This document shows, piece after piece, positions 39,035-59,683 of a stretch of 64,000 nt of DNA. Source of the stretch: Paeniglutamicibacter terrestris (GTDB lineage: Bacteria; Actinomycetota; Actinomycetes; Actinomycetales; Micrococcaceae); NCBI RefSeq assembly GCF_012271785.1, contig NZ_JAAWVT010000001.1, forward strand, positions 1,116,001 through 1,180,000, read 5' to 3'. The number at the start of each line of letters is the position of its first letter. Position 1 is the stretch's first letter. The notes beneath the pieces are model-generated. The model saw only the letters and a program-made list of their open reading frames with translations, ran no database searches and had not been told where the DNA came from. The position numbers and the translations under genes were made by a program.

Positions 39035-39826
39035 TTAGGCGGACTGGCGGATGAGCCAGGTGAATGCCTCTGCCGCTGCGGCCTTGTATTCCAAGGCGAC
39101 GCCTCCGGCGTAGCCGAGGTCGCGGGAACGGGTGACCCATTGCCCCAGCGGCAAGGTTCCGGTTCCCGGTGCCCCGCGTCCCGGGTCGTCGGCGATCTGG
39201 ATATGTCCGAATTCGTGGGCGTGGCCCTCGATCAGTGCTGCCACATCGTCGCCGTTCACGGCCAAGTGGTAGAAGTCGGCGAGCAACTTGACGTTGGCGG
39301 CGCCGGCGGCGTGGACCTTCTGCAGGACGAAGAAGGCATCGGCCGAGGTCTTCAGCGGGTAGGCCTCGGTACCCGAGACTGGCTCGAGCAACACCGTTCC
39401 GCCGATGCGCTCGACGCCCTTGGCCGCTGCGACCAGGTTTGTCACGGCCAGCTTGTCTTGCGCCTGGCCGTCAATCCCCGGCTGGCGGTTGCCGTACAGG
39501 GCGTTGAAGGCCTTGCATCCGGTGGCCTCGCCGATGGCGGCGACCACGTCGATGTTGTCGAGGAACTCGGATTCGCGTCCAACCCAGGAAACCAGTCCTC
39601 GGTCCCCGGCCGGCATGTCACCGGCGAAGAAGTTCAGGCCCTCGAGCGTGACGCCCGCGTCCTTGATGGAGGCAATGAAGGCGTCGATCTCGGAGCCGGC
39701 GGGTACCGCGGTGGCGAACGGCCACCAGAATTCAACGCCGTCAAAGCCCGCTGCCTTGGCCGCTGCGGCGCGCTCAAGCAGGGGGAGCTCGGTGAGCAGG
39801 ATTGAACAGTTGACGGTGTAGGTCAT
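39035..39826 (-). CDS. hyi: Hydroxypyruvate isomerase
   Basis: The 263-residue TIM-barrel protein interconverts tartronate semialdehyde and hydroxypyruvate. It matches Hyi/OtnI, with YTVNCSILLTELPLLERAAAAKAAGFDGVEFWWPF, read in parts, near the N terminus, LLEPVSGTEAYPL in the middle, and HIQIADDPGRGAPGTG near the end. The ATG at 39826 has AAGGAG six bases upstream. It is the first gene of the glyoxylate-assimilation operon, and the regulator box at 39851-39865 lies 25 bases upstream of it. Confidence 0.92.
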   Translation of the reverse strand: MTYTVNCSILLTELPLLERAAAAKAAGFDGVEFWWPFATAVPAGSEIDAFIASIKDAGVTLEGLNFFAGDMPAGDRGLVSWVGRESEFLDNIDVVAAIGEATGCKAFNALYGNRQPGIDGQAQDKLAVTNLVAAAKGVERIGGTVLLEPVSGTEAYPLKTSADAFFVLQKVHAAGAANVKLLADFYHLAVNGDDVAALIEGHAHEFGHIQIADDPGRGAPGTGTLPLGQWVTRSRDLGYAGGVALEYKAAAAEAFTWLIRQSA

Positions 39827-39850
39827 CTTCGACTCCTTCATGGTTCCAAT

Positions 39851-39865
39851 TTCCATATTGTGAAA
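39851..39865. promoter_or_regulatory. Candidate IclR/AllR box before hyi
   Basis: TTCCATATTGTGAAA matches TTCCA-N5-TGGAA at nine of ten half-site positions. It also carries the dyad CATATT-4-AATATG. It lies 25 bases upstream of the hyi start, directly before the ribosome binding site. Confidence 0.6.
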
Positions 39866-40027
39866 TATGTTTATTGCTTGATGAGAACTCTAGCGAGTGG
39901 CCCGAGTCACTGTCAAGACGTCCGCAACCCGGCGCCACCAACCCAAGGCCCGCGCATCTGATGATTTGCAAAGCAACACCCACCCCGGGAACGGTCCCGC
40001 CGGGAACCCGGATATATTTCACCGTTA

Positions 40028-40042
40028 TTCCACCAGACGGAA
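40028..40042. promoter_or_regulatory. Candidate IclR/AllR box before the allantoin permease
   Basis: TTCCACCAGACGGAA matches TTCCA-N5-TGGAA at nine of ten half-site positions. It lies 87 bases upstream of the permease start, within the 302-base gap shared with hyi. Confidence 0.55.
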
Positions 40043-40128
40043 ATGCTTTTCTTTTATGTGGAACCGTGTCATTATCGATCAATCAAGTAATCTCCGTCAC
40101 ACCCCCGTGGTGAAAGGTACGAGCTCTT

Positions 40129-44192: not shown

Positions 44193-45029
44193 CTACAAGG
44201 CGATCTGGCGGTTCTGGTCCTTGTAGAGCAGGTAGCGGAAGTTCGACGGTCCGCCGGCGTAGCAAGCCTGCGGGCAGAAGGCGCGCAGCGACATGTAGTC
44301 GCCGGCCTCGACCTCAACCCAGTCGGCGTTGAGGCGGTAGACCGCCTTGCCCTCGAGCACGTAGAGACCGTGCTCCATGACGTGGGTTTCCGCGAACGGA
44401 ATCGAGGCGCCCGGTTCGAACGTCACGATGTTCACGCCGAAGTCGAACGCCACGTCCTGCGGGTCGAGCATGCGCGTGGTGCGCCACTTGCCCTCGGTCT
44501 CCGGCATGGCGCCGGGCTCGATGTCGCGCTCGTTGCCGACGACCGGCGCCGGTGCAGCGACGCCCGCCAGGACCTCGTAGCGCTTGCGGATCCAGTGGAA
44601 GGTTGCCACCTCGACGCCGTTGTTGTGCGCCTGCCACGCCGTGCCGGCCGGGACGTAGGCGAAGCCGCCCTCTTCCAGGGTGTGCACGGCGCCGTCGATA
44701 CTCACGGTTAGGCGGCCGGAGACCACGAAGACGAAGGACTGGACCTCGGCCTGCGGCTCCGGGTGATCCGAGCCGCCGCCCGGGGCGACCTCCACGATGG
44801 ACTGAGCGAAGGTGGTCGAGCCGCCGGCGACCGGGCGGTTCAACACCCAGGCGCGGGTGCCGGTCCACTCAGGGAAGACCGAGGTGACGATGTCGCGCAG
44901 CACCCCGCGCGGGATGACGGTGTACGCCTCGGTGACGATGGCGCGGTCGGTCAGCAGGTCGGTCTGCGGCGGATGCCCACCGTAGTTCGTGTAGTAGCTT
45001 GCATCGCCACGAGTCTGGATCTTAGACAT
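44193..45029 (-). CDS. allE: (S)-Ureidoglycine aminohydrolase, bicupin
   Basis: The 278-residue double cupin hydrolyses (S)-ureidoglycine to (S)-ureidoglycolate and ammonia. The first cupin has the GGSDHPEPQAEVQSFVFVVSGRL stretch, and the second has the metal-binding FAETHVMEHGLYVLEGKAVY with His, Glu and Gln-type ligands. The N-terminal SYYTNYGGHPPQTDLLTDRA is typical of AllE/UGHY. The ATG at 45029 has GGAGG seven bases upstream and overlaps the end of the DUF6986 gene by eight bases. Its substrate is normally made from allantoate by AllC, which is not in this window. Confidence 0.92.
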   Translation of the reverse strand: MSKIQTRGDASYYTNYGGHPPQTDLLTDRAIVTEAYTVIPRGVLRDIVTSVFPEWTGTRAWVLNRPVAGGSTTFAQSIVEVAPGGGSDHPEPQAEVQSFVFVVSGRLTVSIDGAVHTLEEGGFAYVPAGTAWQAHNNGVEVATFHWIRKRYEVLAGVAAPAPVVGNERDIEPGAMPETEGKWRTTRMLDPQDVAFDFGVNIVTFEPGASIPFAETHVMEHGLYVLEGKAVYRLNADWVEVEAGDYMSLRAFCPQACYAGGPSNFRYLLYKDQNRQIAL

Positions 45030-46299
45030 TCGAGTCCTCCGTCTGTGTTGCTCGCGCCAGGGCGATTGATTCAAGGGTGGATAGGGATATTTCGGCCGTC
45101 GAGGTGATTTCCTCGGCGGTCAGTGCGCCACAAATCAGCCCGCGGCGGATGAAGTTGGCCAGCGCCTTCGCGGTTGCCGGTTCATCCATGATGGACGATT
45201 CGAAGCGGTGCACGTAATTGCGCAGGCGTGCCGCGGCGGCGGCAAAGCCTTCGCGGTAGAACGCGTAGGTCGCCAGGTAGCGGGTCGGCAGCTGGTTCTG
45301 ATGTAGGTCCCAGCCCTGATAGATCCCGCGTTCCAGGTGGCGGCGCACCAGGCGGGCATGAAGCGCCCAGGCGGCCTGGATTTGTTCCGGGTCACCCAGC
45401 GGCAGCATGTTGGTCGAGCCGTCGGAGAGGTGCACGCCGGTGCCGGCGACGGCCACCTGCATGACGTTTTTGGCGTGGTCCGCTGCCGGATGCTCCATGG
45501 ACTGATAGGCCGCCGCGATCCCCAGCGAGGCCGAGTAGTCGTAGGTGCCATAGTGCAGCGAGGAAATCCTGCCCTCGCCGACGTGCAATAGTGTGGCCGC
45601 CGGCACGGTTCCCTCATGGGAGAGGATCAGCTGCGGGGTTTCCATCTGCACCTCGAAGCGCAGGCGTCCAGCGGGTAGCGAATGCGCTGCCTCCAGCTGC
45701 TCGCAAACGAAGACCATGGCGCGGACCTGGTCGACGGTGGTGACCTTCGGAAGAGTCAACACCAAGCCCTCGGGCAGTTCGCCGGCGCGTGCCAGCGTGG
45801 AGACGAACAGATCCAACGTGCGCAAACCCCGGGCCCGGGTCGGTGCCTCGAAGCACTTGAAGCGGATGCCGATGAACGGCGGGGCCACACCCGCCGCCAC
45901 GGCCTTGGCGACCTGTTCGGCCGCGGCAATGGCCGCGGCGTCCTCGGCCGTATCGCCGCGATTGCCGTATCCATCCTCGAAGTCCAGGCGCAGGTCCTCG
46001 ATAGGCTCGTTCTGAAGCTTCGCGGCGACCAGCGTTGCCAGTTCCTCCGGCTGGGCCAGATCCAGCTTTTCGGCCAGCGCGGCCAGGCCGGCCACGCCGC
46101 CGGCGACCTCAAGGGCCGCGGTGCCCCAGGCTGCGGGCAGCTCGGGGGTGAAGCGGTCGGCAGGAACATAGGCGGTGTGGATCGGCTGGCGCCGTCCATC
46201 GTCACCCGGGTAGTTCTTCTCCAGCAGTTCGTCCGTGGCCGCCAACCCGCCGTCAATGCTTGCCAGGGCGGCCGCGCTCAGCGCGCCTTGCTGGCTCAT
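45022..46299 (-). CDS. DUF6986 protein, CitE/HpcH-like lyase fold, function unknown
   Basis: The 425-residue protein looks like a TIM-barrel lyase of the CitE/malyl-CoA lyase kind. RLDFEDGYG (about 104-112) and [13 protein letters not shown] (about 215-227) match the positions of the metal-binding Asp/Glu residues in that superfamily. [23 protein letters not shown] provides a conserved Arg. Its start overlaps the malate synthase stop (ATGA), and its end overlaps allE. It is thus locked between a glyoxylate-consuming and a ureidoglycolate-forming enzyme. A role in releasing or using glyoxylate, for example cleavage of ureidoglycolate or of a malyl-type ester, is plausible but unproven. Confidence 0.75.
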
Positions 46300-49336: not shown

Positions 49337-49355
49337 ATCGTCCTCCTGAAAAAGT

Positions 49356-49370
49356 TTCCGTATAGTGGAT
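49356..49370. promoter_or_regulatory. Candidate IclR/AllR box before the malic enzyme operon
   Basis: TTCCGTATAGTGGAT matches TTCCA-N5-TGGAA at eight of ten half-site positions. It lies 20 bases upstream of the malic enzyme start, directly before its ribosome binding site, just as in front of hyi. Confidence 0.5.
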
Positions 49371-49437
49371 ACTATTATCTACTGAGTGAAATTACAAGCA
49401 CTTATGTGCGCTGGGCCACGGGAATTGTGCGTCAAAG

Positions 49438-49452
49438 TTTCGGATCGTGGAA
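49438..49452. promoter_or_regulatory. Candidate IclR/AllR autoregulatory box
   Basis: TTTCGGATCGTGGAA matches TTCCA-N5-TGGAA at eight of ten half-site positions, with a perfect right half. It lies about 105 bases upstream of the IclR-family gene. Confidence 0.4.
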
Positions 49453-49556
49453 TAATTCTCTGGGGCTCCGGTATTGTTGGGCCCAAAGACAAGACCATTG
49501 GCGGGATCATCCCCATTGATTCGCGCTCGCGCACCAGCAGATCCAGGAGCATCTCC

Positions 49557-50321
49557 ATGGCCGAAGTAAAGACGACATCGGGCGTCCAATCCGTCGAGCG
49601 CGCCTTCGAGCTCCTCGAGCTCATTGGCCGGGCCGGAGGCGAAGCGGCCCTGAGCGAACTGGCCGTGGACACCCCGCTTCCACTTCCCACCATCCACCGG
49701 CTGCTGCGCACCCTGGTGGGCATTGGATACGTGCGCCAGCTAAACAACCGCCGCTACGCCCTGGGCCCACGGCTGATCCGACTGGGAGAGGTCGCCAACC
49801 GCCAGCTCGGCGCACTCTCCACGCCCATCCTCCAGACCCTGGTCAACGACCTGGGCGAATCGGCCAGCATCGCGGTTCTCGACGGCGACATGGTCACCTA
49901 CATTTCCCAAGCCCAGTCGCCACACGCGATGCGCATGATCACCGAGGTCGGACGCCGCTCGTCGCTGCACGGAACCGGGGTGGGCAAGGCAATCCTGGCG
50001 GTGCTGGAGAACGAAAGGGTTCAGCGCCTGGTCAACCAGGCTGGCATGCCTGCCCATACGCCAAACACCATAGGGACCATGCACCAACTTTTCGACGAAC
50101 TCGAAAAGGTGCGAGCACGCGGCTACGCCATCGACGAGGAAGAGCAGGAGCTCGGCGTACGCTGCCTGGCGATGGCCGTCCCCGGCGCACCGACCCCGAT
50201 GGCAATCTCCGTCTCCGGGCCGGTCACCCGACTCAACGAAGAATTCGCCACCCGGGCCGTGCCGCACCTGCGGGCCGCCACCGCGCAGCTATCCGCCGCA
50301 TTGGCCGTCACCACAGGCTAG
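49557..50321 (+). CDS. allR: IclR-family regulator, probable ureide/glyoxylate regulator (AllR-like)
   Basis: The 254-residue protein has the IclR winged helix (SGVQSVERAFELLELIGRAGGEAALSELAVDTPLPLPTIHRLLRTLVGIGYV, read in parts) and the effector domain with GRRSSLHGTGVGKAILAVL, GYAIDEEEQELGVRCLAMAVPG and a final AISVSGP. AllR of E. coli, of this family, senses allantoin and glyoxylate. The ATG at 49557 has AGGAG seven bases upstream; the frame is open further upstream but without coding character. It is divergent from the malic enzyme operon and sits between two ureide gene blocks. The TTCCA-N5-TGGAA boxes are its likely targets. Confidence 0.85.
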   Translation: MAEVKTTSGVQSVERAFELLELIGRAGGEAALSELAVDTPLPLPTIHRLLRTLVGIGYVRQLNNRRYALGPRLIRLGEVANRQLGALSTPILQTLVNDLGESASIAVLDGDMVTYISQAQSPHAMRMITEVGRRSSLHGTGVGKAILAVLENERVQRLVNQAGMPAHTPNTIGTMHQLFDELEKVRARGYAIDEEEQELGVRCLAMAVPGAPTPMAISVSGPVTRLNEEFATRAVPHLRAATAQLSAALAVTTG

Positions 50322-50428: not shown

Positions 50429-52033
50429 CTAGTGAAGAGGCGGGTGCGGGCCGGAGCGCACGAACTCCGACTCGTCGGGACAGGGGATGCCGGCCTCCTC
50501 GCATTTCCTGCGGTGCTCCTCCACGATGCCCTTGAACTCGTTCTCGTCGACGACGGGGATTTCCGCTCCGTCCGCGTCGATGATCTTGCCGGACTTGAAG
50601 CGATCCCCCTCGAGCAGTCCGCGGACCTCCTCCGCCTTAACGATGCGTGGAACCTGCTCAGCGATGACCATGCGCGGCGGGGCCGCCGCAAAGGCGGAAC
50701 CGTCCTTCTTGGGCGTTCCCAGCTTCAGCTCATTAAATAACAGGTTCAGTAACACGGCCATAACCGCCGCCGAGCTAATGCCCGAGTGGAAGATGGTGGC
50801 GAACCACGTTGGGAACGCGTCGTAGAAGTCTGGCTTCACGATTGGCACGGCACCAAAGGCGATCGAGGTCGCCACGATGATCAGATTAAGGTTGTTCTCG
50901 TACTTCACGTTGGCTAGGGTGCGAATGCCGGATGCCGCAACGGTGCCGAAGAGCACGATGCCCGCTCCGCCCAGCACAGGTGTAGGGATGGCGGCAACCA
51001 CGCGACCGAGCACCGGCAATAGGCCTAGCACCACGAGGATTCCGCCACCGGCAGTGACCACAAAACGGGACTTGACGCCGGTGATGGCCACCAGCCCGAC
51101 ATTCTGCGCGAACGCGCTCTGTGTGAAGGTGTTAAAGACGGGGGCAAGGATGCTCGAGGCCATGTCTGCCCGCAGGCCGTCGGCGATGCGCCGCGAATCC
51201 ACCCGCGTCTTGGCGATCTCGCCGACCGCCAGGATGTCCGCGGTGGTTTCGGTGAGGATCACGATGACGACAATCGTCATCGAGACGATGGCACCGACCT
51301 CGAAGACCGGCCAGCCGAACGCAAGGGGCTGCGGGAAGGCGAAAATGGTGCCGCGGCCCACCGCGGAGAAGTCCGCCATTCCCAAAAATATCGCGATAAT
51401 GGTGCCGATGACCATGGCCAGCAGGATCGATAGGCGAGAGATCGCCGCCTTTCCGACCTTAGAAAGCAGCAGCACGATCACCATGGTCAGTGCGGCGAGC
51501 CCGATGTTGGCCAATGAACCGTAATCATCGGCCTTGGCGTTGCCCCCCATCGCCCAGTTGGCGGCCACCGGGGTGAGCGAGAGTCCGATCATCGTGATAA
51601 CCACGCCGGTCACCACCGGCGGGAAGAATCGTACAATTTTCGCGAAGAACGGGGCGATCAGGAAGCCAATCACGGAGGCGGCCAAGACGGCACCAAAAAC
51701 TGATGGCAGACCACCATCCCCATTAACAATCGCCACCATGGTGGACACCGAGGCGAACGACGTGCCTTGGACCAGGGGCAATTGGGCGCCAAAGAACGGG
51801 ATGCCAACCGTTTGCAGGATCGTGGCCAGACCGCCGACAAAAAGGCAGCTGGCAACCAGCACGCCGATTTGTTCCGGGCTCAGCCCGGCGGCACCGCCAA
51901 TGATCAGCGGTGGGGCAATAATGCCGCCGTACATGGTCAAGACGTGTTGGAGCCCGTAGGCGACGGTTTTGCCCAGTGGCAGCCGTTCGTCCTCGGGCCG
52001 AGATGTTGTACTTTTGACTTGCGCAGCCTTCAT
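50429..52033 (-). CDS. NCS2-family urate/xanthine permease
   Basis: The 534-residue protein is a nucleobase:cation symporter-2 of the UacT/PucJ/UapA type with fourteen predicted helices. The marks are YGLQHVLTMYGGIIAPPLIIGGAAGLS at the N terminus, the QNVGLVAITGVKSRFV motif and the GAGIVLFGTVAASGIRTLA segment, both diagnostic for this family. A hydrophilic C-terminal tail of about 90 residues is longer than usual. AAGGAG lies seven bases upstream of the start. It is the last gene of the uraD-pucM-pucL-permease operon, so urate is the most likely substrate. Confidence 0.9.
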   Translation of the reverse strand: MKAAQVKSTTSRPEDERLPLGKTVAYGLQHVLTMYGGIIAPPLIIGGAAGLSPEQIGVLVASCLFVGGLATILQTVGIPFFGAQLPLVQGTSFASVSTMVAIVNGDGGLPSVFGAVLAASVIGFLIAPFFAKIVRFFPPVVTGVVITMIGLSLTPVAANWAMGGNAKADDYGSLANIGLAALTMVIVLLLSKVGKAAISRLSILLAMVIGTIIAIFLGMADFSAVGRGTIFAFPQPLAFGWPVFEVGAIVSMTIVVIVILTETTADILAVGEIAKTRVDSRRIADGLRADMASSILAPVFNTFTQSAFAQNVGLVAITGVKSRFVVTAGGGILVVLGLLPVLGRVVAAIPTPVLGGAGIVLFGTVAASGIRTLANVKYENNLNLIIVATSIAFGAVPIVKPDFYDAFPTWFATIFHSGISSAAVMAVLLNLLFNELKLGTPKKDGSAFAAAPPRMVIAEQVPRIVKAEEVRGLLEGDRFKSGKIIDADGAEIPVVDENEFKGIVEEHRRKCEEAGIPCPDESEFVRSGPHPPLH

Positions 52034-52109: not shown

Positions 52110-53036
52110 CTAGCAGAATCCGGGCGTGTTTTCCCAGATGGGGTGGGCCGCAGAAGCCCCTTCCCGGGTGATGGCAGCCTCGATCAGGCCGTACGGACGA
52201 TCCGCCGCAAAGAAGACCTCATTCGGGTTGTCCTGACCAAATGGCGTCAAGTCAACAAGAAAGTGATGCTTGTTGGGCAGGGAGAACCTGATTTCCTCGA
52301 TCTCCGGATGGGCTTCGAGTACGGCCTCGCCCATGTCGAACATCGTTTGCTGCAAAGCAAAGGAATGCCTAGCGGCGAAACCCGTTAGCAGCAGTTTACG
52401 CACCGAGGCATAGACGGCGTTGAAATCCAGGGCTCCGCCGGCAACCGCGGCCGAGCCGTAGCGCCAGCGGCTGCTGACATCGGTGGCCAGAATCCTGTCA
52501 TCGGTTTCCTGCAGCGTGGTGTAGCGATCAATTGGATAGTTGCGAAATTCACTGGCGGTGGATTTGAGCACCGTCAGGTCCTTGATCCCGGCCAGCACGG
52601 TCGGCTCGCCATCAGTGATTTCCAGTACGGCGGTTCGCACCTCGGACTTGTTCCGGGAAAAGGCGTGGTCGTGATTCTGGATGCGGTCCCAGAAATATTG
52701 TTCGGCTGCCCATCGGCCACCGGTGATCCAGTCAAATTCCGTGGTGAAGTGCTTACCGAGCCGCAGTAGGAACGCCTCCGGTGAGCCAACCCCATCCCGG
52801 GCAAGGCCGTAGACGGTGTTCTTCTGCGTGTCGGTGGCAACGACGTGCCGGTTGTCCCCATCGACGTGCGCGGCGAGAAAATCGCCGCGAAGCTGAGAAG
52901 TGACGTTCAAATCCTCGATCTGGTGGCGGGCGGTGTCGCGCGTGATTTTCACCAGACGGACTTCGGCCTTGCCATATTGATTGGCTCCAAGCACGATCTT
53001 GGTGCCTGTTCGATTTTTGGTTGCTGCGGTATTCAT
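52110..53036 (-). CDS. pucL: Urate oxidase (uricase)
   Basis: The 308-residue cofactor-free oxidase converts urate to 5-hydroxyisourate and hydrogen peroxide. It closely resembles Arthrobacter uricases as I know them: VVLGANQYGKAEVRLVKI-type start, TDTQKNTVYGLARDG with the catalytic Thr, HAFSRNKSEVRTAVLEI and SLPNKHHFLVDLTPFGQDNPNEVF, read in parts. A short Ala/Gly-rich stretch (GSAAVAGGAL) before DFNAVYASV seems longer than in those enzymes. GGGAG lies nine bases upstream of the start. It follows the HIU hydrolase gene by six bases. Confidence 0.96.
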   Translation of the reverse strand: MNTAATKNRTGTKIVLGANQYGKAEVRLVKITRDTARHQIEDLNVTSQLRGDFLAAHVDGDNRHVVATDTQKNTVYGLARDGVGSPEAFLLRLGKHFTTEFDWITGGRWAAEQYFWDRIQNHDHAFSRNKSEVRTAVLEITDGEPTVLAGIKDLTVLKSTASEFRNYPIDRYTTLQETDDRILATDVSSRWRYGSAAVAGGALDFNAVYASVRKLLLTGFAARHSFALQQTMFDMGEAVLEAHPEIEEIRFSLPNKHHFLVDLTPFGQDNPNEVFFAADRPYGLIEAAITREGASAAHPIWENTPGFC

Positions 53037-53041
53037 GTTCT

Positions 53042-53398
53042 CTAGCTCCCTCGGTACGTGGAATAAGCAAACGGGCTGATAAGAAGAGGCACGTGGTAGT
53101 GAGCAGCTGTGTCGCTAATGACGAAATCGATGCTGACCACGGGAAAGAAGGTTTCCGTACCCGTCATTCCGAAGTAGTCACCCGTGCCGAAGGTAATTCG
53201 GTGGTGACCAGCTTCAACCTTTGTCGGACCAAGGGTCTGGATGCGTCCATCGGCATCGGTGACTCCTGACCCGATTTCTTGCCATCCGGATGCCGTCTTG
53301 GCTTCCAGCGTGGCCTTGACACCGGAGGCAGGCCTCCCGGTCCCGGTGTCGAGTACATGGGTGGTGATGTGGCTTCTCGCAGCCTGGGTGATACTCAT
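53042..53398 (-). CDS. pucM: 5-Hydroxyisourate hydrolase (transthyretin-like)
   Basis: The 118-residue protein hydrolyses 5-hydroxyisourate to OHCU. It has HITTHVLDTGTGRPASGV at the N terminus with the catalytic His, GRIQTLGP in the middle, HYHVPLLISPFAYSTYRGS at the C terminus, and the terminal YRGS tetrapeptide that defines HIU hydrolases. The ATG at 53398 has AAGGAG eight bases upstream. It lies between uraD and uricase, so the three enzymes act in sequence on one transcript. Confidence 0.95.
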   Translation of the reverse strand: MSITQAARSHITTHVLDTGTGRPASGVKATLEAKTASGWQEIGSGVTDADGRIQTLGPTKVEAGHHRITFGTGDYFGMTGTETFFPVVSIDFVISDTAAHYHVPLLISPFAYSTYRGS

Positions 53399-53457
53399 CA
53401 AGGACTCCTTTGGATTCGTTGAAGGGGAAAGAAAACCGGCAAATTTTGGCCTGCGAT

Positions 53458-53964
53458 TTAGCGGGCGGGCACACGGTTGAACGCCGCGGCAAGACGCAGA
53501 AGCGCGATGGCACGCAGCTGCTCGTCGACTTCCACCAACTCGGTCTCAAAGTCGTTCCTCAAACGGCGACGCAGTTCTGCAAGAATTTCTTGGCTGCTTC
53601 GGCCTGCGGCCCGGATGAGAAAAAGCCGGGAGAACCGTTCTTCGTAGGCGCGGTTCCCAGCCAGCAGCTCGGCGGCAACCTGCACGTTGAAGGTCAGATC
53701 GGATTGTTCGACGCGGCTGAGCGCGGCTTCTGCCGAGGGCCCGGCGGCGCGCTCCCCGATGCGGGGATGGTGGGCCAGTGCCGCGTTGATCTCCGCTTCG
53801 GTGAACGGGTTGGCGGCAGTTTGGGCACAGGCCAGAAGTTCTTCAAGAGAACTAAAAGGGCGGGCGCCCAGAGTGGCTTCAACCCAGCGATCTATGTCGG
53901 CACATGGTCGAAGGACTGCGTCTGCTGTCTTTACATCGAGTGCATTGAATCGAGAAATATCCAT
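53458..53964 (-). CDS. uraD: OHCU decarboxylase
   Basis: The 168-residue enzyme decarboxylates 2-oxo-4-hydroxy-4-carboxy-5-ureidoimidazoline to (S)-allantoin. The catalytic His motif is visible in ALAHHPRIGERA, and the substrate-binding region in NRAYEERFSRLFLIRAAGRSSQEILAEL. It is the first gene of the urate operon. The 326-base upstream gap contains a degenerate IclR-type box at 54059-54073 and a perfect one at 54251-54265. Confidence 0.93.
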   Translation of the reverse strand: MDISRFNALDVKTADAVLRPCADIDRWVEATLGARPFSSLEELLACAQTAANPFTEAEINAALAHHPRIGERAAGPSAEAALSRVEQSDLTFNVQVAAELLAGNRAYEERFSRLFLIRAAGRSSQEILAELRRRLRNDFETELVEVDEQLRAIALLRLAAAFNRVPAR

Positions 53965-54058
53965 GGGGTGATCAGCTCTTTCAAACCTGCTTGGTATGCC
54001 GACACCATCCAGGGCTGAACACCCTTACCACCGGCGTGAACCGGCTTCGACTCGATGT

Positions 54059-54085
54059 TTCTGGATGGTGGAACTTTGCTTCCAC
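54059..54085. promoter_or_regulatory. Overlapping dyads before uraD, candidate regulator site
   Basis: TTCTGGATGGTGGAA (54059-54073) has a perfect TGGAA right half and a poor left half. It overlaps a separate dyad GTGGAA-6-TTCCAC (54068-54085). It lies about 95 bases upstream of the uraD start. Confidence 0.4.
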
Positions 54086-54250
54086 ACCATGTAACTCCGA
54101 TCACACCCCATCCGTCAAGGGCATCGGCCAATCTCCTTTGGCAGCCCGCTGCCCCCAGGCCACCCGGGCCGGGCATGAAGCAAATCACATCACCCTCTTG
54201 CGGTTCTCATGATTCGAGTTCATACTTATTCTCACAAAGCAATATTAAGT

Positions 54251-54265
54251 TTCCATATTATGGAA
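54251..54265. promoter_or_regulatory. Perfect IclR/AllR-type box before the small ORF
   Basis: TTCCATATTATGGAA is a perfect 7+1+7 dyad and the best example of the TTCCA-N5-TGGAA motif in the ureide region. It lies 25 bases upstream of the GTG at 54291, the same spacing as the box before hyi. Confidence 0.65.
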
Positions 54266-54290
54266 TCCGCATCGTTCAGAGGAGGATCAC

Positions 54291-54482
54291 GTGAAAATCA
54301 CCCAGCCCATCGCTGAAGTATCCAGCGAGACACACCCACACACGGTTCCGGAAACGTCTGCGGCGCTGAGCACTGGCATGTTCCATCCCATCAGGGGGTT
54401 AGATCCGGATCTTAGTATCGAACCGCGTCGCACCAAGCCACGTATCGGGCTCTGGTCGCGGTTCTGGACCACGCGCAACTAG
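54291..54482 (+). CDS. 63-residue small protein of unknown function in the ureide region
   Basis: A GTG-started frame of 63 codons follows an excellent ribosome binding site (AGAGGAGG, about six bases upstream). The product is hydrophilic and ends in a basic, aromatic tail (KPRIGLWSRFWTTRN). I recognise no family, signal peptide or membrane helix. The perfect dyad 25 bases upstream matches the box before the hyi and malic enzyme operons, so it is probably expressed together with the ureide genes. A peptide partner of an enzyme or transporter, or a regulatory peptide, is possible; none of this is shown by the sequence. Confidence 0.6.
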   Translation: MKITQPIAEVSSETHPHTVPETSAALSTGMFHPIRGLDPDLSIEPRRTKPRIGLWSRFWTTRN

Positions 54483-59540: not shown

Positions 59541-59625
59541 TACGGGTCCTTGGTGAGGAGGAGGCATGAGGTGCGTGGTGGCCACGAGCAGAAGAGGCCC
59601 AGTGTCACGCGTCACAACCATATTA

Positions 59626-59640
59626 TTCCACGCCGTGGAA
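59626..59640. promoter_or_regulatory. Perfect TTCCA-N5-TGGAA dyad before the MFS/amidohydrolase operon
   Basis: TTCCACGCCGTGGAA is a perfect 7+1+7 dyad with the same half-sites as the boxes in the ureide region. It lies 86 bases upstream of the MFS start. The ROK regulator encoded just upstream is an alternative binder. Confidence 0.6.
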
Positions 59641-59683
59641 AATGTCGATACCTTTTTCCCGCAAGGTTGTTTCGGGGGTTTTT

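Follow-up and report, generated by a model that had tools for sequence, protein, structure and literature searches.

Uricase has been studied in depth and serves as a drug, and we know of no accessory protein of a bacterial uricase. Small accessory proteins of transporters and enzymes are familiar, for instance the MetS-type and KdpF-type subunits, and to our knowledge no small protein figures among the targets of AllR, the regulator of an IclR-type ureide regulon in E. coli. Motifs of the IclR family include a WTT-11-AAW class, of which WTTYCRYW3RYGRAAW is one form (PMC8222616).

In the window (the whole stretch of DNA analysed, 64 kb), a small gene of 63 codons is found at 54291-54482 on the forward strand, starting with GTG and ending with TAG. 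The first-pass annotation had read this frame together with a Shine-Dalgarno sequence, and both are in place, the ribosome-binding site AGAGGAGG (54278-54285, forward strand) being kept in relatives. On one side the gene is flanked by a divergent urate operon on the reverse strand, made of uraD (OHCU decarboxylase, 53458-53964), a 5-hydroxyisourate hydrolase (HIUase) gene (53042-53401), the uricase gene (52110-53036) and a gene for a xanthine/urate permease family (NCS2) protein (50429-52033), and on the other by an SDR gene. Like the MetS- and KdpF-type subunits, the product is a short protein whose gene neighbours those of a permease and an enzyme acting in one pathway; unlike them, it has no transmembrane segment (45 members) and resembles no curated family in sequence, and its gene is divergent rather than within the operon. 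Transcription-attenuating leader peptides also come as short frames behind a regulated promoter, which is what we predict for the small gene, but the latter has no constant downstream gene, and its amino acids are conserved over genera. As in the AllR-type ureide regulons, an IclR-family gene is part of the cluster, and boxes are found before several ureide genes. The box of the small gene fits WTTYCRYW3RYGRAAW of the WTT-11-AAW class exactly, whereas the E. coli AllR motif, KTTGGAAWAWTWTTCCAAC, has its half-sites in the other order (PMC8222616).

The conservation of the frame was analysed in 15 genomes of the home genus. A first search matched 13 of them, G002 proved to be the fourteenth, where the same position holds a divergent copy, and the fifteenth, G001, has neither the small gene nor uraD. 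In all 14 uraD-carrying genomes the frame is open, with no frameshift and no internal stop, and is accompanied by the same operator and ribosome site; in most relatives the start codon is ATG. Among 19 tested pairs, 18 gave dN/dS values of 0.05-0.35 (Nei-Gojobori counts). The exception was the closest pair, the window and L019, where the value of 0.76 rests on 10 substitutions only and is uninformative alone. The pN/pS ratio was 0.33 in frame 0; of the five other frames, four gave 1.27-1.76, and reverse frame 1 gave 0.42, as is to be expected when its third positions mirror those of frame 0. Third positions accounted for 126 of the 230 substitutions. Selection on the amino acids is purifying in most pairs. 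The conserved frame next to uraD that the first-pass annotation proposed to look for is present in 14 genomes out of 14, and neither of the findings it had named as refuting its reading, a frame not conserved in relatives or frameshifts in it, was observed there. From these comparisons, the small gene is almost certainly a real coding gene.

Its peptide has a core, FHPIRGLDPD, and a basic tail, KPRIGLWSRFWTTRN. No match above the cut-off was found in Pfam, NCBIfam or the PDB sequences, in agreement with the initial view that it falls in no known family; a HupE/UreJ match in Pfam was dismissed (E 0.14, far below the cut-off). A plasmid search gave no match, and a search of one library of papers found nothing on the gene. 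The AF2 model is of low confidence, with a mean pLDDT of 63 and a pTM of 0.19, and has two short helices. The tail had been described as basic and aromatic. Its basic character holds throughout, with a net charge of +1 to +7 across the last 22 residues in 31 of 31 members (alignment A3); the aromatic part stands less generally, W55-S56 being invariant in the home-genus alignment and the aromatic residue partly kept in other genera. The amphipathic signal of the tail is weak (mean z 1.05). In the 45 members the best 19-residue Kyte-Doolittle mean is 0.96, and with no transmembrane segment we rejected a membrane-spanning transporter small subunit or a type I toxin.

A profile from the home genus led to a second large genus and two more, and successive improved profiles combined with reading of the loci extended the family to about 55 genomes in 12 genera of the host's taxonomic family (g1, g5, g8, g10, g11, g18, g20, g21, g22, g23, g31 and g32). 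The figure of about 55 is our own count, with some members, e.g. four g10 genomes and G060, checked by coordinates only. DPD is invariant in the family alignments, GGxDPDF is the usual form in most genera, and the sequence varies freely outside this small core. Order- and class-wide profile searches (396 and 326 genomes sampled) yielded no convincing member beyond the host's taxonomic family, and since these were samples, absence outside it is unproven. One of the matches to the small gene lies in a Micrococcaceae metagenome-assembled genome. Short-frame matches from outside the taxonomic family, at L168, L176, L183 and L118, were rejected for having no box, no ureide genes, or repeats, and weak matches at L078 and L079 for overlapping longer frames away from ureide genes. 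In the searched representatives of eight uricase-carrying genera (g3, g6, g7, g13, g16, g24, g25 and g28) no copy was detectable, so the small gene does not appear to be essential for uricase. As judged from sequence, this is an undescribed family, in none of the databases searched, and soil bacteria of 12 genera or more carry it.

The small gene is preceded by an IclR-type operator, TTTCCATATTATGGAAT (54250-54266), whose dyad, TTCCATATTATGGAA (54251-54265), is perfect, as announced by the first-pass annotation, with arms of 7 bp. It stands 25 nt before the GTG, and 24 nt separate the box before hyi (39850-39866, dyad 39851-39865) from the hyi ATG at 39826, which bears out the claim of a common spacing. 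Across the 4.34 Mb genome, the small-gene dyad alone matches TTCCRYANTRYGGAA perfectly; the hyi box has one mismatch to that motif, and sites with two mismatches are found before the NCS1 gene, in the IclR/malic-enzyme region and at the uraD promoter. We then scored all 17-mers of the window with a matrix built from relatives' boxes only, the window and its nearest relative being left out. The small-gene box ranked first (26.4 bits), the hyi box second (25.1), and the next best site reached 16.7. Lower-ranked boxes were those of the NCS1 (allantoin-type) permease (40027-40043) and of the region between the malic enzyme and IclR genes (49355-49371 and 49437-49453), and one near 59625. In genomes where the small gene went undetected, the relatives' matrix still picks out boxes upstream of uraD, malic enzyme and further genes of the cluster; as this matrix was moreover built without the window, assigning the gene to the regulon is not circular. 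Nearly every examined copy of the small gene has an IclR-type box upstream. Common to 29 upstream sequences are hexamers of the TTGCC and CATACT type, a box at 22-33 nt from the start codon (degenerate in a few of them) and, usually, a strong ribosome site. The alignment of relatives points to a promoter at 54198-54226, forward strand, composed of TTGCGG (54198-54203), a 17 nt spacer and CATACT (54221-54226); given this promoter, the operator would lie at about +18 to +32 of the predicted transcript. Membership of the small gene in the IclR/ureide regulon, already suspected on first reading, is thus very likely in view of the relatives' boxes. The regulator is likely the IclR-family protein encoded at 49557-50321 on the forward strand (inferred start, within a frame open from 49386); its gene lies within the cluster at most loci.

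Some other sites and genes were encountered on the way. The box at 59625-59641 (15.1 bits) lies just upstream of an MFS gene starting at 59621 on the reverse strand, with an amidohydrolase-like frame adjoining, and may mark another target of this regulator. Ureide clusters elsewhere, in other genera, have IclR-type boxes ahead of a pyruvate-dehydrogenase-E1-like (aceE-like) gene (L109, 7299-7315; L156, 14302), an identity read from sequence. A DUF6986 protein is encoded at 45022-46299, between malate synthase and a ureidoglycine aminohydrolase-like cupin in the ureide cluster, and is still beside the cupin in another genus (L157).

The first-pass annotation placed the small gene between the urate operon and an SDR gene. 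This is correct in the window, but neither uraD nor the SDR gene is constant among relatives. In the home genus and in g23, g18, g21, g5, g11 and g31, the small gene is divergent from uraD, which heads a uraD-HIUase-uricase-permease operon. In 10 genomes (g10, g20, g32) uraD is elsewhere, and in 10 out of 10 the small gene is divergent from uricase. In g22 it sits between the IclR gene and uricase, directly behind the former. The one exception is G074 (g8), with the small gene about 9.5 kb from uricase; G096, of the same genus, has it in the usual place. The gene on the 3′ side varies (SDR, TetR-like, sialidase-like, others) and is convergent in about half of the loci, so that the small gene looks like a stand-alone unit. 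Gene order thus supports uricase, rather than uraD, as the constant neighbour.

Our preferred reading, to which we give a probability of about 0.7, is that the small gene is a translated member of the ureide regulon whose product acts as an accessory of the uricase/urate-permease module, a role chosen because uricase is the neighbour that stays. The IclR-family repressor of the cluster would occupy the operator, a short way past the transcription start, and come off when purine or ureide catabolites appear. The product would be a ureide-induced, largely disordered, soluble peptide, whose DPD core may dock it on the uricase/urate-permease module, where it could keep the enzyme close to the permease, for instance, or modulate its activity, while the basic tail might add contact with the membrane or an acidic surface. 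The small protein is probably a part of uric acid breakdown not known before; that it is a partner of uricase or the permease in particular is more tentative, a little short of an even chance.

The main rival is an unlikely one, in which the IclR-controlled peptide would itself bind that repressor, or a different regulator, and so determine how strongly or when the ureide genes respond. It would account for an operator class common to the small gene and the regulon, for the presence of the IclR gene in the cluster at most loci, and for the g22 arrangement. Against it, when clusters are split the small gene remains divergent from uricase, and both IclR box and IclR gene occur in genomes with no detected small gene. 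That the product is a general protective peptide with no specific partner, induced with the pathway against hydrogen peroxide, which the uricase reaction yields, or against poorly soluble urate, strikes us as distinctly improbable: a disordered, basic peptide, variable outside its core, would suit such a task, yet a DPD core that hardly varies speaks for a specific contact. It is also very improbable that the transcript matters and not the peptide, either as a leader peptide or as a regulatory RNA holding an open frame by chance. The transcript is short and apparently regulated, and the fold of the peptide is of low confidence, but the amino acids are under selection, Rfam gave no match, and no downstream gene is constant, with a convergent one coming next at roughly half of the loci; a leader peptide was rejected for want of a constant co-directional downstream gene. 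Lastly, a chance frame beside a real operator serving only the divergent uraD operon, which the position of the box between two divergent genes might suggest, is scarcely credible and is refuted as far as sequence can do so, as frame, start, Shine-Dalgarno sequence and core persist across 12 genera, a separate box and promoter belong to the uraD operon, and the small gene stays by uricase where uraD is elsewhere.

On the opposite strand, uraD has a predicted structured leader RNA (53962-54083, reverse strand) that ends with the uraD ATG and comprises P1, a hairpin P2, and P3; an inferred promoter, TTGACG - 17 nt - GTTACA, conserved in relatives, lies at 54090-54118 on the same strand. P1 is formed by CACCATCCAG/CTGGATGGTG, and P3 by GGGTGTTCAGC/GCTGATCACCC, adjoining the ATG and closing over the start codon region; P1 interlocks with P3 in a pseudoknot. 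Of 37 leaders, nearly all are able to form the three helices. Pairing with the own partner, compared to strands of other species, gave z values of 8.9 for P1, 10.1 for P2 and 2.0 for P3, scores that sequence relatedness can inflate. P3 is mostly invariant and is therefore supported by conservation, not by covariation, and since P1 overlaps an IclR-type box, the operator may account for part of the conservation there. A covariance model matched the leader in 80 of 295 genomes, in 11 genera, the hit in G019 (g6) being weak and away from uraD. Rfam 15 gave no match, and a search of the same library of papers found nothing on a urate riboswitch. We regard this conserved, covarying leader as a candidate for a riboswitch, or for another kind of cis-regulatory RNA, in urate catabolism. 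A decayed second copy lies upstream of xanthine dehydrogenase genes in G206 (L209, 2755-2861); a truncated uraD-like start follows and conserved bases are lost, and we rejected it as evidence on the ligand. Four genera (g7, g10, g24 and g28) have a different conserved uraD leader, TGCTGAAATAACAGTTCCACGATGCGA ... CGCATAGCC ... CCGTGGATGCCAGCA, with self-complementary parts (region 4403-4431 of L102, also L104, L110, L114 and L124) and no match in Rfam.

Taken together, the interval between uraD and the SDR gene might hold, one on each strand and both under one IclR repressor, two components of urate catabolism not described before: a dedicated partner protein of uricase or its permease, and a pseudoknotted leader RNA sensing a metabolite of the urate pathway and controlling uraD translation. 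We put this combination forward as a doubtful one. A conserved, regulated small protein that stays with uricase when genomes are rearranged would allow a direct test for a cellular partner of uricase. More generally, an operator examined together with relatives can reveal small genes that are missing from annotation libraries.
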